From positions 1 through 40,904 of the forward strand of contig JALETK010000096.1 of the NCBI GenBank assembly GCA_022781505.1: a stretch of 40,904 nt of DNA. Reading direction: 5' to 3'. The notes beneath the pieces were generated by a model. The model was given only the letters and a program-made list of their open reading frames with translations, had not been told where the DNA came from and searched no databases. How positions within the stretch are numbered: the stretch's first letter is position 1; each line of letters starts with the position of its first letter. A program made the translations under genes and the position numbers. This document shows positions 3,180 to 17,574 of the stretch, in pieces. Origin of the DNA: Clostridiales bacterium. Lineage in GTDB: Bacteria > Bacillota > Clostridia > Oscillospirales > Oscillospiraceae.

Positions 3180-4127
3180 ATGGCTGTCACGAATCACATA
3201 TATGATATGCTGATCATCGGAGGAGGCCCCGCCGGGTGCACGGCGGCGCTGTACGCCGCCCGGGCCGGGCTGGACGCCCTGGTTTTGGAAAAGCTGGCCC
3301 CCGGCGGGCAGATGGCACAGGCCCATTGGATTGACAACTACCCCGGCTTTGACGGGGGCATTGACGGCTTTTCCCTGGCGGAAAAAATGTGGCGTCAGGC
3401 GGAGCGCTTCGGCGCCAAAAGGGCGGCGGCGGAGGTTCTTTCCCTGGACCTCCGGGCCAATCCCAAGGAAGCGGGAACCGGCGAAGGGAGCTTCTATGGC
3501 AGAACCCTGGTGTTTGCCGCCGGGGCAGCACCCCGGGAGCTGGGGCTTCCCATGGCCGATGCGCTGATTGGCCGGGGGGTCAGCTACTGCGCCGCCTGCG
3601 ACGGCATGTTCTATCGGGGCAAGACCGTGGTGGTTGTGGGAGGCGGCAACACGGCGGCTGCGGACGCGATGCTTCTCAGCCGCGTGGCGGAGAAGGTGAT
3701 TCTGGTTCACCGCAGGGATACCTTGCGGGCAGCCAAAATCTATCACCGGCCTCTGATGGAAGCCGGGAACGTGGAATTCTGCTGGAACAGCACGGTCACC
3801 GGCCTGATGTACGGGGACAGGCTCACCGGCGTCCGCATCCGGGACCGGAATACCGGCCTGCAAAGGGAGCTGGCCTGCGACGGCGTGTTTGTCAGCATCG
3901 GCAGAAAGCCCGCCACGGAGCTGGTGCGGGGACAGCTGGAGCTGGATGATTCGGGCTATGTGGCGGCAGACGGTTCCACCGAGACCGGCATCCCCGGGGT
4001 CTATGCCGTGGGAGATGTGAGGGCCAAGACCCTCCGGCAGATTGTGACGGCAGTTGCCGACGGAGCCGTGGCCGCAGACCGGGCAGAGGCCTATCTTGCG
4101 CACCAGCGCCCCCATTTGTCATCCTGA
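3180..4127 (+). CDS. trxB: Thioredoxin reductase-like FAD/NAD(P) oxidoreductase
   Basis: GGGPAGCTAALYAARAG FAD site, YCAACDGMFYRG CxxC redox motif, VVGGGNTAAADA NADPH site, GVYAVGDV; SD AGGAGC upstream of ATG. Confidence 0.88.
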   Translation: MAVTNHIYDMLIIGGGPAGCTAALYAARAGLDALVLEKLAPGGQMAQAHWIDNYPGFDGGIDGFSLAEKMWRQAERFGAKRAAAEVLSLDLRANPKEAGTGEGSFYGRTLVFAAGAAPRELGLPMADALIGRGVSYCAACDGMFYRGKTVVVVGGGNTAAADAMLLSRVAEKVILVHRRDTLRAAKIYHRPLMEAGNVEFCWNSTVTGLMYGDRLTGVRIRDRNTGLQRELACDGVFVSIGRKPATELVRGQLELDDSGYVAADGSTETGIPGVYAVGDVRAKTLRQIVTAVADGAVAADRAEAYLAHQRPHLSS

Positions 4128-4142
4128 GGCGCAGCCGAAGGA
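4118..4142 (+). repeat. Dispersed repeat fragment (GTCATcCtGAGGCGCAGCCGAAGGA)
   Basis: Shares GAGGCGCAGCCGAAGGA exactly with the minus strand of 12055-12079; overlaps the trxB stop codon. Confidence 0.6.
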
Positions 4143-4355
4143 AGACAAGCCGGGGCTGTGGTTATTTCATTACAATGACACAGATGGGAGCCTTTACGGT
4201 TTGACAGGGGAGCCAAGGCTCCGGCAGGTGCCCTACGGACACAGGGGGCGGCTGAACAGGTGCGGGCAGAGTAAGCGAAAACACGCCAGGGGACAGGGAA
4301 CCGGCCTTGTACCATGACGTGTTTTTCCTATCAGGGGAGGGGAGAAGCGCCTGAC

Positions 4356-4724
4356 TCACTGCCGGGCAAAGCTCAGGTATCTGGTTCCCTGGAAGGAGAG
4401 CAGCCCCCGGTCTCCCTCTGCCAGCATTCCGTATTCCGCCGCGTTCATGGGCAGCTCCATCCGGTCCCCGCTGGGCACCTGGAAAGTGACGTAATAGCTG
4501 GTGGAGGAGGTGACACAGCCGCTGTGGCCAATGGGATCGTGGCGATGGTGGACGCTGTACCGCTTGGTGACCACGGTGGCCTCCACCGTCAGCCGGGGGG
4601 CGTGGTTGTTCCGGTTCCACTGCCGGAGGCCCTGGATGATGAAGAAAATCACCATGCCCAGAACCAGAAAAAAGACGATAAAAAAGAGAAGCTCAAATCC
4701 ACCGCCAAAAAAGAAGTCCGACAT
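4356..4724 (-). CDS. DUF2500-like small membrane protein
   Basis: MSDFFFGGGFELLFFIVFFLVLGMVIFFIIQGL (TM), then VEATVVTKRYSVHHRHDPIGHSG...YYVTFQVPSGDRMELPM...GMLAEGDRGLLSFQGTRYLSF. SD GAGGAGG lies 9 nt upstream of the internal ATG, so the ORF-track start is too early. Confidence 0.75.
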   Translation of the reverse strand: MSDFFFGGGFELLFFIVFFLVLGMVIFFIIQGLRQWNRNNHAPRLTVEATVVTKRYSVHHRHDPIGHSGCVTSSTSYYVTFQVPSGDRMELPMNAAEYGMLAEGDRGLLSFQGTRYLSFARQ

Positions 4725-5019
4725 AAGTAACATCCTCCTCTTTGCTTCTTTACCAATATTATACACAATTTTTTTGAATAAGTAAATATGAAACAGAGAA
4801 AAAGAGAAAAGCCGGGAGGCGGGCGGCGGTGGCGGAAGGGGCGAAAATTTGGATTTACATGGTGTTTTTGTAAAAGAAACCGGGGAAAGTATTGGAGCTT
4901 TTTGTCTCTTTTGCGGGAAATGAAAAAAAGTGTTGTTTCCTCCATAAAAATGGTGTAAAATAATCCGGATGAAGTTCTTATAGACAACCCGCAATACTGT
5001 ATTGGAGGTTTTATAAATT

Positions 5020-13955: not shown

Positions 13956-16505
13956 TTACACGTTTCTGGGCCAGCCGCTGAGAAGCAGTCCCGGGACGGA
14001 CCAGAGGAGCAGGAACAGGCCCAGGTTTGCCAGGGACATGATGCCCGGGGCGGAGAGGCTGGCCAGGATCCCCATGATGATCATGCCCATGATGCCTCCC
14101 GCCAGGGCCACCAGGGTGCCCCAGCGCACGGCGGTGCACAGGGCCCGGGCTCCGGAGACGGCCAGAGCCACGGCGGGGAACCGGTACTCCTGCAAAAGGA
14201 CGCAGGGCTTGGCCCCGGAGGAGCTCTCCCGCTTGGCAAGCTCTGAGCGAACCGTGAGGGAGGGGAGCTTGACCTTGGCGGTGTTCACCCGGAATTTGGA
14301 GCGGAGGAAGGGCTCGGAGATGATGAAATCCCCCGCCGTCACCACCGGGAGGACCCCCCGGCTGGCGGCCAGGGAACCGAGGCTCTGGGCGGCGCTTCGG
14401 GTGACGCCATAGTGAATGGCGAACACACCGGCTAGGCTGCCGTTGATGGCCACATACACAGCCTGGCTGACCCGGGTGCCCGCGGGCATCTCCACGCCCA
14501 TGGACTGCATGAACTGCAGGGAGCCCACCAGGACGGAGTCCGCGCCAATCTCCGCCCCGGCGCCGCCGGACTCGTACCGGCGGAACTTGGTCAGGGCGTA
14601 GCGTCTGGCGGCGCGAATTTCCATCTGCTCCTGGAACAGGGGCGCCAGCCCACTGCCGGCAGCCTCAATGACCGCTGCCCCGTAGGCCACCACCCGGTCC
14701 GGGGCCTGGCCGCCGTAATATTTGACCCCGTTGAGCTTGATGTTGTCCCGGGGAAACAGATCCTGGTCGGAGACGGGAACCGCCAGCTTGCCGCACAGGC
14801 GGCGGGCGCCGGTCCAGCCGTAGAGGGAGGCGCCCTGCTCCTGCAGGCGGCGGTTCAGGATTGCCCAGGGACGGTACCAGGCCACGGAGCCCAGGAGCGG
14901 CGTCCCGGCCAGGGCAATGGCTGTCCAGTATTGGAGAAAGGTGGGAATGTCCCCACCGCAGGTGAATCCGGCGATCAGGGCGGAGATCAGGAGCACCGCC
15001 GCCCCGTAGAACTCCAGAAGGAGCTGAGGCCCGGCGGCTCTGTCGTTTGCCTGGAGGAACTCGGGCATACTGCCCTTGCCCTTCAGCACACCGGCGGTCT
15101 TTTGATAGAGACCGGGCTCCCGGACCAGGGCGGTCTCGCCGCTGCAGTGCCTGGCCGGGGCCATGGCGTCGCGGGTGCCGGTGCTGCGCAGCAGCAGGCC
15201 CCACAGGGCGCAGGCCAGCAGCAGGCTTACCAGGGGACAGTAGGTGTACCGCAGGGACTGGAAAGCGTAAAAGCTGTCCGCCAGGCTCACCAGGATTTCC
15301 ACGGTTACCAGGGTGTTGAAGCCAAAGCCCGGCTTCAACAGCTGCCGGAGGCCGTCGGACAGGACGTCGTAGGCGGCGCAGGCGCACAGGAGCATCAGAA
15401 GAATCTCTCCCATGACCAGAAGGGACTGGGACTGAAACCGCTCCAGAAGCCCCTGGGAGTGGAAAAAGCCCAGAACCAGGTTGCACAGGGCAAACAGCAG
15501 GCAGACCGCCAGGCGGATGCCCCGGCGCTTTTGCTCCTGACCGGCCTGACGGAACCGGGCTTCCGGCGTCAGAATGGGCTTGGGCGGCTTTTTATCCCCG
15601 GGGGCTTTGGCCCGGCGGGGCGGCTTCCGCCTGTCCTCCGGGAAGGGGACGGCGGGACGGCCAGGCGCTCCGGGCCGGGCTGCCCTTTCCGGGGCGCGTT
15701 CCGGTTCCGCCGTGGGCGGTGCGGAGGGCCCGGCGGGAGGGATCTCCGGGGAAGGGTGTGCGGCCTTTTTGACCGGAGGCTCTTCCCGGTGGAGTTCGTT
15801 TTGCACAGGCTCCAGCCTCCCTTGAGAGGGCGTAGGCTCCGGCTTCGATTCGGGCTTCCGGCGGGGCGGTGTGGACTCCGGTTCCGGTTCGGACCTCCGG
15901 CGGGGTGGCGTGGGCTCCGGCTCCGGTTCGGGCTTCCGGCGGGAAGGACCGGGCTCCGGAGCGGGTTTCAGGCGGGAAATCCCGGCGGCAGCCTTCCGGC
16001 GGGGCGGCTGCTCCGCCTCCGGCGCCGCAGGCTTGCGCTTCCGGGGAGCGGCAGGCTCCTCCCTCCGGGGGGCCGCCTCCCGAACCTGGAATCCGGTGGA
16101 ATGGGCGGAGGCCGGGAAAGCGGGAGAGCCCGCGGGGGCGTCGGGAATTTTGGGCTTTACACCCAGAAGATCCGGGCCGGGAATGGGTTCTTCCTCCCAA
16201 TCCTCATCGGAATCCTGAAGAATAGAGGGTTGTTCCTCCACCATTGGCTGATTTGGAACATGCCGATCCGGAAGATCCTCCACATTGGGCTGATACCGCT
16301 GGGTCTCCGGATCGGCGTCCCGGGTGTGGTGCCGGGGAATCGGCGTCTGGAGCGCGGGGTCCTGGGGAGTCGGCTGCTCCCCGGACGGCTGCGACGCCCC
16401 GAATTCCTGCAGAATATCCTCCAGGGTAAAGCGCTCCTCCTCCTGAGGCGGCTGGGGAGGAGGGGAAAGGGGAGGCGTGCTCTGCTGCTTCTTTCTTTTT
16501 TTCAT
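13956..16505 (-). CDS. Large membrane protein: disordered Pro/Arg/Glu-rich N-terminus plus degenerate P-type-ATPase-like C-terminal module
   Basis: ATG with GGAGGT SD. C-terminal half has several hydrophobic segments plus YDVLSDGLRQLLKPGFGFNTLVTVEILVSL and GAGAEIGADSVLVGSLQFMQSMGVEMP...YVAINGSLAGVFAIHYGVTRSAAQSLGSLAASRGVLPVVTAGD, which resemble P1B ATPase TM and N/P-domain segments. Confidence 0.7.
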   Translation of the reverse strand: MKKRKKQQSTPPLSPPPQPPQEEERFTLEDILQEFGASQPSGEQPTPQDPALQTPIPRHHTRDADPETQRYQPNVEDLPDRHVPNQPMVEEQPSILQDSDEDWEEEPIPGPDLLGVKPKIPDAPAGSPAFPASAHSTGFQVREAAPRREEPAAPRKRKPAAPEAEQPPRRKAAAGISRLKPAPEPGPSRRKPEPEPEPTPPRRRSEPEPESTPPRRKPESKPEPTPSQGRLEPVQNELHREEPPVKKAAHPSPEIPPAGPSAPPTAEPERAPERAARPGAPGRPAVPFPEDRRKPPRRAKAPGDKKPPKPILTPEARFRQAGQEQKRRGIRLAVCLLFALCNLVLGFFHSQGLLERFQSQSLLVMGEILLMLLCACAAYDVLSDGLRQLLKPGFGFNTLVTVEILVSLADSFYAFQSLRYTYCPLVSLLLACALWGLLLRSTGTRDAMAPARHCSGETALVREPGLYQKTAGVLKGKGSMPEFLQANDRAAGPQLLLEFYGAAVLLISALIAGFTCGGDIPTFLQYWTAIALAGTPLLGSVAWYRPWAILNRRLQEQGASLYGWTGARRLCGKLAVPVSDQDLFPRDNIKLNGVKYYGGQAPDRVVAYGAAVIEAAGSGLAPLFQEQMEIRAARRYALTKFRRYESGGAGAEIGADSVLVGSLQFMQSMGVEMPAGTRVSQAVYVAINGSLAGVFAIHYGVTRSAAQSLGSLAASRGVLPVVTAGDFIISEPFLRSKFRVNTAKVKLPSLTVRSELAKRESSSGAKPCVLLQEYRFPAVALAVSGARALCTAVRWGTLVALAGGIMGMIIMGILASLSAPGIMSLANLGLFLLLWSVPGLLLSGWPRNV
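15816..15945 (-). repeat. 39-bp (13-aa) tandem repeat inside the disordered N-terminus
   Basis: Units RRKPEPEPEPTPP / RRRSEPEPESTPP / RRKPESKPEPTPS; nucleotide periodicity CTTCCGGCGGGGCGGTGTGGACTCCGGTTCCGGTTCGGA at 15855, 15894 and 15933. Confidence 0.75.
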
Positions 16506-16526: not shown

Positions 16527-16761
16527 GCGTTGTAACTTTTAAAATATTACTTTGGTGCATTGTAGGGGAGGGTCATGACCCTCCCGGAACAAAACGGAAC
16601 CACCCGGGCCTGTTCTGCTCCAGGGCCAAAGGATTCTGCGGATTTGCCAGAGTGCGCTGGGAAAGGAAGTCCCATACTGCGGGAGGGTCATGACCCTCCC
16701 CTACAGTTCATAGAATTGCGGCCCTTAGTTATCTGTAGTCGATTTTTAGAAGTTACAACGC
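16527..16761. repeat. Nested inverted-repeat (MITE-like) intergenic element
   Basis: Outer TIR GCGTTGTAACTT(T/C)TAAAA at 16527 and 16761 (17/18). Inner perfect 26-nt inverted repeat TGTAGGGGAGGGTCATGACCCTCCCG (16561-16586 vs 16680-16705). Each inner arm contains the perfect palindrome GGGAGGGTCATGACCCTCCC. Confidence 0.75.
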
Positions 16762-16794: not shown

Positions 16795-17574
16795 TTATCG
16801 CCGCTGGCGCACTGCCTCGTAAAGGAGGATTGCCGCAGTGGCGGAGGCGTTCAGAGAGGAGATGCGGCCCTTCATGGGAACGCGCACCAGCACGTCGCAG
16901 GTCTGCCGGACCAGGCGTCCCATTCCCTCGCCTTCATTTCCAATGACGATGGCTGTGGGGCCTCTGAGGTCGGCCTCGTACAGCTCCTTTTCACCGTCGG
17001 CGGCGGTGCCGTAGACCCACACACCCTTTTCCTGAAGCTCCTTCAGGGCGGTGGGGATGTTGGCCACCCGCACCACGGGCATGTACTCCACGGCGCCGGC
17101 GGAGGCCTTGGCCACCACCGGGATCAGGCCCACGCTCCGCCGCTTGGGAATCACCACCCCGTGAGCTCCGGCACACTCGGCGGAGCGGAGAATGGCTCCC
17201 AGATTGTGGGGGTCCGACAGCTCGTCGCACACCACCAGCAGGGGGGCCTCCCCCTTGGCCCGGGCGGCCTCCAGCACCTCGTCCAGGGTGGCGTAGGTGT
17301 GGGCGGCGGCCTGGGCAATGATGCCCTGGTGGGCGTGGGTCACGCTCATCTGATCCAGCTTCCGGCGGTCCACCGGCACCACCACGGCGCCGGCCTGCCG
17401 GGCCTCACCGGCCAGGCGGGAGAGATTCCGGTCCGTATCACCGGCGGCGATGAATACCTTGTCCAGAGCCCGGCCGCTGCGCAGGGCCTCCTGCACGGCG
17501 TTCCGCCCCTCCAGCTGGCCCTCCAGGGCGTCTAGCTCCGGCTCCGGCTGCTTCTTTCTGAATTCCTGTTTCAT
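16795..17574 (-). CDS. rlmB: 23S rRNA (guanosine-2'-O-)-methyltransferase RlmB / TrmH family SpoU methylase
   Basis: LEGRNAVQEALRSGRALDKVFIA, VVCDELSDPHNLGAILRSAECAGAHGVVIPKRRSVGL, AIVIGNEGEGMGRLVRQTCD, RISSLNASATAAILLYEAVRQR; SD AAGGAGA before ATG 17574. Confidence 0.94.
   Translation of the reverse strand: MKQEFRKKQPEPELDALEGQLEGRNAVQEALRSGRALDKVFIAAGDTDRNLSRLAGEARQAGAVVVPVDRRKLDQMSVTHAHQGIIAQAAAHTYATLDEVLEAARAKGEAPLLVVCDELSDPHNLGAILRSAECAGAHGVVIPKRRSVGLIPVVAKASAGAVEYMPVVRVANIPTALKELQEKGVWVYGTAADGEKELYEADLRGPTAIVIGNEGEGMGRLVRQTCDVLVRVPMKGRISSLNASATAAILLYEAVRQRR

Follow-up and report, generated by a model that had tools for sequence, protein, structure and literature searches.

In the window, a stretch of 40,904 nucleotides comprising contig JALETK010000096.1 of the Clostridiales bacterium assembly GCA_022781505.1, a gene on the minus strand (positions 13956 to 16505) codes for a protein of 849 amino acids, which consists of a long N-terminal tail and a pseudo-P1B-ATPase core. 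The open reading frame extends from 16514 to 13956 when counted from a TTG codon. However, the ATG at 16505 is preceded by a Shine-Dalgarno-like GGAGG and is the likely translation start, so that the gene span proposed in the original prediction was retained. The translation contains AAYDVLSDGLRQLLKPGFGFNTLVTVEILVSL, GAGAEIGADSVLVGS and YVAINGSLAGVFAIHYG...VVTAGD, together with ALAGTPLL, SDQDLFP and AAGSGLAPLF. Upstream on the same strand (16795 to 17574), the operon partner rlmB encodes the 23S rRNA G2251 2'-O-methyltransferase (TIGR00186, E=4e-72, over the cut-off). Between the two genes, a repeat element built of nested inverted repeats was identified (16527 to 16761, no strand assigned), with the outer inverted repeat GCGTTGTAACTTTTAAAA and the inner one TGTAGGGGAGGGTCATGACCCTCCC. 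Its 25-nt arm occurs at 167 sites in the 2.47-Mb genome when up to two mismatches are allowed, and the reversed control occurs at none. Judged from these counts, the element is an abundant MITE-like or palindromic repeat, and it was regarded as lying outside the system.

All features of the protein are encoded on the minus strand. The tail (residues 1-320, about 312 amino acids; 15546 to 16505) was assigned by composition as disordered, cytosolic and rich in Pro, Glu and Arg, with 25% Pro over residues 46-312, which agrees with the disordered cytosolic N-terminus of about 300 residues originally predicted. Within it, near the N-terminus, lies the short motif FTLEDILQEF (residues 26-35; 16401 to 16430). 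From about residue 330, eight hydrophobic segments follow in the order 4+2+2 in the family-averaged hydropathy, and this arrangement, characteristic of P1B ATPases, was also found in the profile alignment. TM1-TM4 (residues 330-437; 15195 to 15518) correspond to MA, MB, M1 and M2 of P1B ATPases, as supported by the hydropathy and by HMM, in which CopA residues 95-239 are matched with an i-Evalue of about 1e-13, the boundary between TM3 and TM4 being set by inspection only. At the place of the actuator (A) domain, a remnant of about 60 amino acids without TGES is found (15012 to 15194), followed by TM5-TM6, corresponding to M3-M4, in which the family alignment places GTPLL at the position of CPC (14868 to 15011). 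Between TM6 and TM7 lies a soluble head, about 250 residues long. It comprises SDQDLFP at the DKTGT position (residues 579-585; 14751 to 14771), an N-domain-like region (14436 to 14720), the sequence TAGD as the equivalent of TGD (residues 723-726; 14328 to 14339), in which Asp726 is 94% conserved, and the site of a missing GDGxND segment of about 33 amino acids (14196 to 14237). The protein ends with TM7-TM8, corresponding to M5-M6, with the conserved residues Trp835 and Pro838 at their end (13959 to 14117; hydropathy and conservation). AlphaFold models calculated from three rows (the window protein and the related loci L001 and L002) had a pLDDT of 35 for the 536-amino-acid core and of 31 for the head domain, values too low to be of use.

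Searches of Pfam, NCBIfam and PDB with the single protein sequence gave chance matches only, none of them significant, and no Pfam or NCBIfam entry covering this dead P1B-like family was found. With a family profile built from 48 relatives, the best match in PDB was Legionella CopA (LpCopA, 3rfu; E=3.9e-29), followed by HMA4 (1.6e-21), AfCopA (2e-17) and, more weakly, ZntA (1e-9). Judged by the criteria given along with the original prediction, its interpretation is supported. In hhalign, the family aligned to true CadA and CopA proteins from its own and related genomes with a probability of 99.2 (E=1.8e-19, 310 columns), and the identity as a pseudo-P-type ATPase was borne out by this homology, which extends over M3-M4 and the P and N domains. 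By HMM, the CopA of the same genome was matched both in the TM1-4 half and in the P/N half, and the NCBIfam CopA model was matched by 27 of 48 members, at best with 2.9e-16. Searched against the class genomes, the family profile retrieved real P-type ATPases in hundreds of genomes, with E-values as low as 2e-37. Membership in the P-type superfamily by descent is thus indicated by homology across the membrane, P and N domains. The window protein is almost certainly a dead descendant of a P1B-ATPase. Because of the profile, hhalign and CopA matches, the ancestor is taken to be a P1B pump, probably of the copper type (Cu+, P1B-1-like). It is hardly conceivable that hydrophobic helices and glycine-rich loops produce the resemblance by coincidence, as the lack of significant matches for the single sequence might suggest, since the profile E-values reach 1e-29 to 1e-37 in the soluble P/N regions and the motif order is matched with near-constant spacing; a chance look-alike was ruled out by the profile searches.

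The 8-TM pattern and the P/N head were inherited from a P1B ATPase, while the catalytic parts were lost. None of the motifs TGES, CPC, DKTGT, SEHP and GDGxND is intact in any of the 66 aligned members, so that neither the elements common to functional P-type ATPases (DKTGT, the GDGxND hinge and an actuator with TGE(S)) nor those of P1B pumps (CPx/SPC in M4, and SEHP in the N domain, with its HP for adenine binding) are found. The absence of CPC, DKTGT and GDGxND had been noted before for the single protein; as no aligned member retains them, an assembly error is not its cause. A lone DKTG string in one member (L058) falls inside its tail. No TGE motif was seen in the aligned M2-M4 region, in which the distance from the M2 Asn to the M4 Pro has a median of 140 residues in the family, compared to about 220-234 in real P1B ATPases, and the profile alignment to LpCopA is gapped at the A domain. 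From this spacing, most of the actuator domain, about 80-95 residues, is judged to be gone. Likewise, a segment of about 33 columns that includes GDGxND has no counterpart in the family in the hhalign comparison to real CadA and CopA, while the strand and helix beyond can still be aligned. The central TM4 (M4) proline is kept in 89% of the members, but the CPC cysteines are not. In the N domain, the profile alignment confirmed the loss of SEHP, with Gly661 invariant and Gly648 near-invariant (98-100% conserved).

The replacement of DKTGT by SDQDLFP held with respect to its position, and the register was changed in detail. By HMM, hhalign and residue counts, Ser579 falls on the catalytic Asp, D580 on the Lys and D582 on the Gly of DKTGT; all members have the same distance between the M4 proline and the motif, which would be one residue off that to DKTGT if D580 were the acceptor. 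The phosphoacceptor column contains Ser in 16, Thr in 14, Arg in 7 and Asp in 7 of the 66 members, in addition to others including Asn and Lys, and a Gly at +8 of the motif is kept in 41 of the 66. A reading of the conserved D-x-D as HAD motif I of a phosphatase was rejected, since in the ungapped register its two Asp residues align with Lys and Gly of DKTGT. The members with an Asp at the phosphoacceptor position are distant ones (L050, L053, L055, L057, L058, L059 and L065; for example, VIDSNYLFP). In these, DKTGT and GDGxND are gone as well, and they are possible intermediates of decay.

In a protein search, homologs were identified in 94 of 99 related genomes, and for ten close pairs, a Ka/Ks of 0.08-0.27 was determined. 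These low ratios indicate that it is a working gene, on which, by sequence comparison, purifying selection acts nearly throughout the order. An assembly error or a pseudogene was rejected on the basis of the same ratios and of the homologs in related genomes. In the order, which is probably the Oscillospirales of GTDB, since L001 and L002 derive from Oscillospiraceae metagenome-assembled genomes, 188 of 199 genomes carry a match with E<1e-60. Four of the 11 genomes without a match are at least 95% complete, and a few real losses within the order are therefore likely. In the 392 class genomes searched, full-length members are confined to the order containing the Oscillospiraceae; no full-length member was found in the 374 class genomes outside it, for which the best match was 2e-37 and the matches listed are limited to M3-M4 and the P/N part of ordinary pumps.

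The tail varies among relatives from nearly absent to more than 600 residues. Near the N-terminus, a strict FxLEDILxEF is present in 41 of 66 members, compared to 0.1 expected from shuffling, and near variants are present in many others. The coding pattern of the motif has a single match in its own genome, which lies within the window gene. In 60 genomes, 28 of 31 matches are at the family's own locus, and the reversed control gave none. The motif could form an amphipathic helix. In the members of family f10 (L052 with 545 and L056 with 544 amino acids), tail and motif are wholly missing, so that the tail is not essential to the core role everywhere; these proteins represent a natural test of its role.

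The rlmB gene was identified directly upstream of the family gene in 63 of 64 testable loci, testable being those with upstream sequence (L029 and L061, at contig ends, were left out). A simple search gave 59 cases on the same strand, and four more (L039, L047, L049 and L053) were added in which the start had been called too far upstream. In the sole exception, L043 (family gene at 3637-5001), obgE, coding for a 50S-binding GTPase, is located upstream instead. Most of the gaps between the two genes measure 3-24 nt, the median being about 17 nt, and in several loci they overlap by 4 nt; the window has a longer gap of 289 nt, owing to the inserted repeat element. Apart from a set of open reading frames antisense to rlmB, no other neighbour cluster occurs in more than eight loci, although the loci from the same genus have short flanks. 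The other neighbours include Obg, Era, YebC, an EF-G-like protein and RsmF. Since the downstream genes vary (EF-G-like, Era, YebC, RsmF and also unrelated enzymes), only the rlmB linkage carries weight. It suggests that the window gene is probably coexpressed with RlmB, and the linkage may reflect merely shared expression.

A replacement of yacP by the gene, downstream of rlmB, found no support, since a YacP domain occurs elsewhere in 26 of 45 relatives. In the order, YacP/Rae1 (PF05991) is located inside frames of 850-900 amino acids, as in L107 (1465-3300, G067), where it follows translational-GTPase-like sequence, and similarly in other relatives. Judged from these frames, it appears to be fused rather than a stand-alone gene after rlmB.

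As the best explanation overall, held with slightly more confidence than doubt, the protein would have descended from a Cu+-type P-type ATPase, lost its catalysis and taken on a new role as a scaffold or receptor anchored in the membrane; for the scaffold or receptor role taken by itself, confidence and doubt are evenly balanced. The window protein would be incapable of the usual MgATP binding, aspartyl phosphate formation and metal pumping. Instead, the P/N head would offer a rigid surface for docking at the membrane, and a cytosolic partner would be captured by the FxLEDILxEF helix, which is tethered by the flexible tail. Because of the probable coexpression with RlmB, the partner or process would most likely be tied to 50S ribosome biogenesis or translation near the membrane, a link that is suggested tentatively and with considerably more doubt than confidence. 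The complete scenario, in which a copper pump became an order-universal membrane receptor without enzymatic activity, docking a complex of ribosome biogenesis or translation via the motif and the dead head and coupling it to RlmB expression, is speculative and considered unlikely as a whole.

A possible, though doubtful, alternative is that of a membrane sensor for a metal or another ligand, in which the TM bundle inherited from P1B ATPases binds the ligand and the dead head relays the signal to a partner via the long cytosolic tail with its conserved motif. However, no conserved cluster of Cys, His or Met was found in the TM helices among the family members, and the residues conserved there are Pro, Gly and Trp, suggesting structure over ligand binding. 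It appears improbable that the protein is a non-canonical active transporter with a rewired catalytic site, as claimed for ERMA/TMEM94, which reportedly takes up Mg2+ despite its lost motifs (PMC13322241). This report implies that motif loss alone is no proof of absent transport, and the retained TM4 proline would fit such a pump. However, in most members the column of the Asp needed by ERMA is Ser, Thr, Arg or Lys, the family has lost, and not merely altered, the whole Mg2+ loop and the greater part of the A domain, and neither the CPC nor the other metal-site cysteines were retained. A third possibility, a regulatory partner of the true P1B ATPases of the genome, for example a heteromeric inhibitor or a chaperone, is consistent with the presence of true P-type ATPases in the same genome. 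This is very improbable, since linkage to copA or cadA did not recur in the loci examined, where the gene is linked to rlmB instead. In addition, P-type ATPases are usually monomeric.

The protein is near-universal and apparently single-copy in a major order of gut bacteria and represents a good target, and its conserved motif and rlmB operon make the role directly testable. The original prediction had not covered the two deletions (A domain and GDGxND segment), nor the motif near the N-terminus, the linkage to rlmB or the conservation throughout the order.

Pseudoenzymes are well described among kinases and proteases; in the open literature searched, no description of one was found among bacterial P-type ATPases. 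Soluble archaeal P-type ATPase-like HAD proteins such as MJ0968 likewise consist of a P/N head without an actuator domain. In contrast to these catalytic proteins, the window family is embedded in the membrane and its catalytic motifs are missing. With CopA (P1B-1; LpCopA 3rfu; NCBIfam PRK10671/TIGR01511), the window family shares the helix pattern, the P/N head and the order of the elements. It differs by the lack of the metal-binding domain, TGES, CPC, DKTGT, SEHP and GDGxND, by the largely deleted A domain and by the addition of the long disordered tail with a new motif. In the apicomplexan guanylyl cyclase-alpha, for which the conserved catalytic Asp of the P4-ATPase domain has been discussed (PMC7858053), a P-type ATPase domain is combined with a non-transport function, as proposed here; this domain is eukaryotic and of the P4 type, unlike the window family. 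The nearest precedent in kind is ERMA/TMEM94, a motif-poor eukaryotic P-type ATPase of the ER in which TGES and GDGVND are lost, DKTGT is altered to DKQGI, and ATP-dependent Mg2+ uptake requiring its Asp has been reported (PMC13322241). Whereas ERMA/TMEM94 keeps the A, P and N domains and still uses this Asp, the window family is bacterial and derived from P1B ATPases, has lost the A domain and usually also the Asp, the column being mostly Ser, Thr or Arg.
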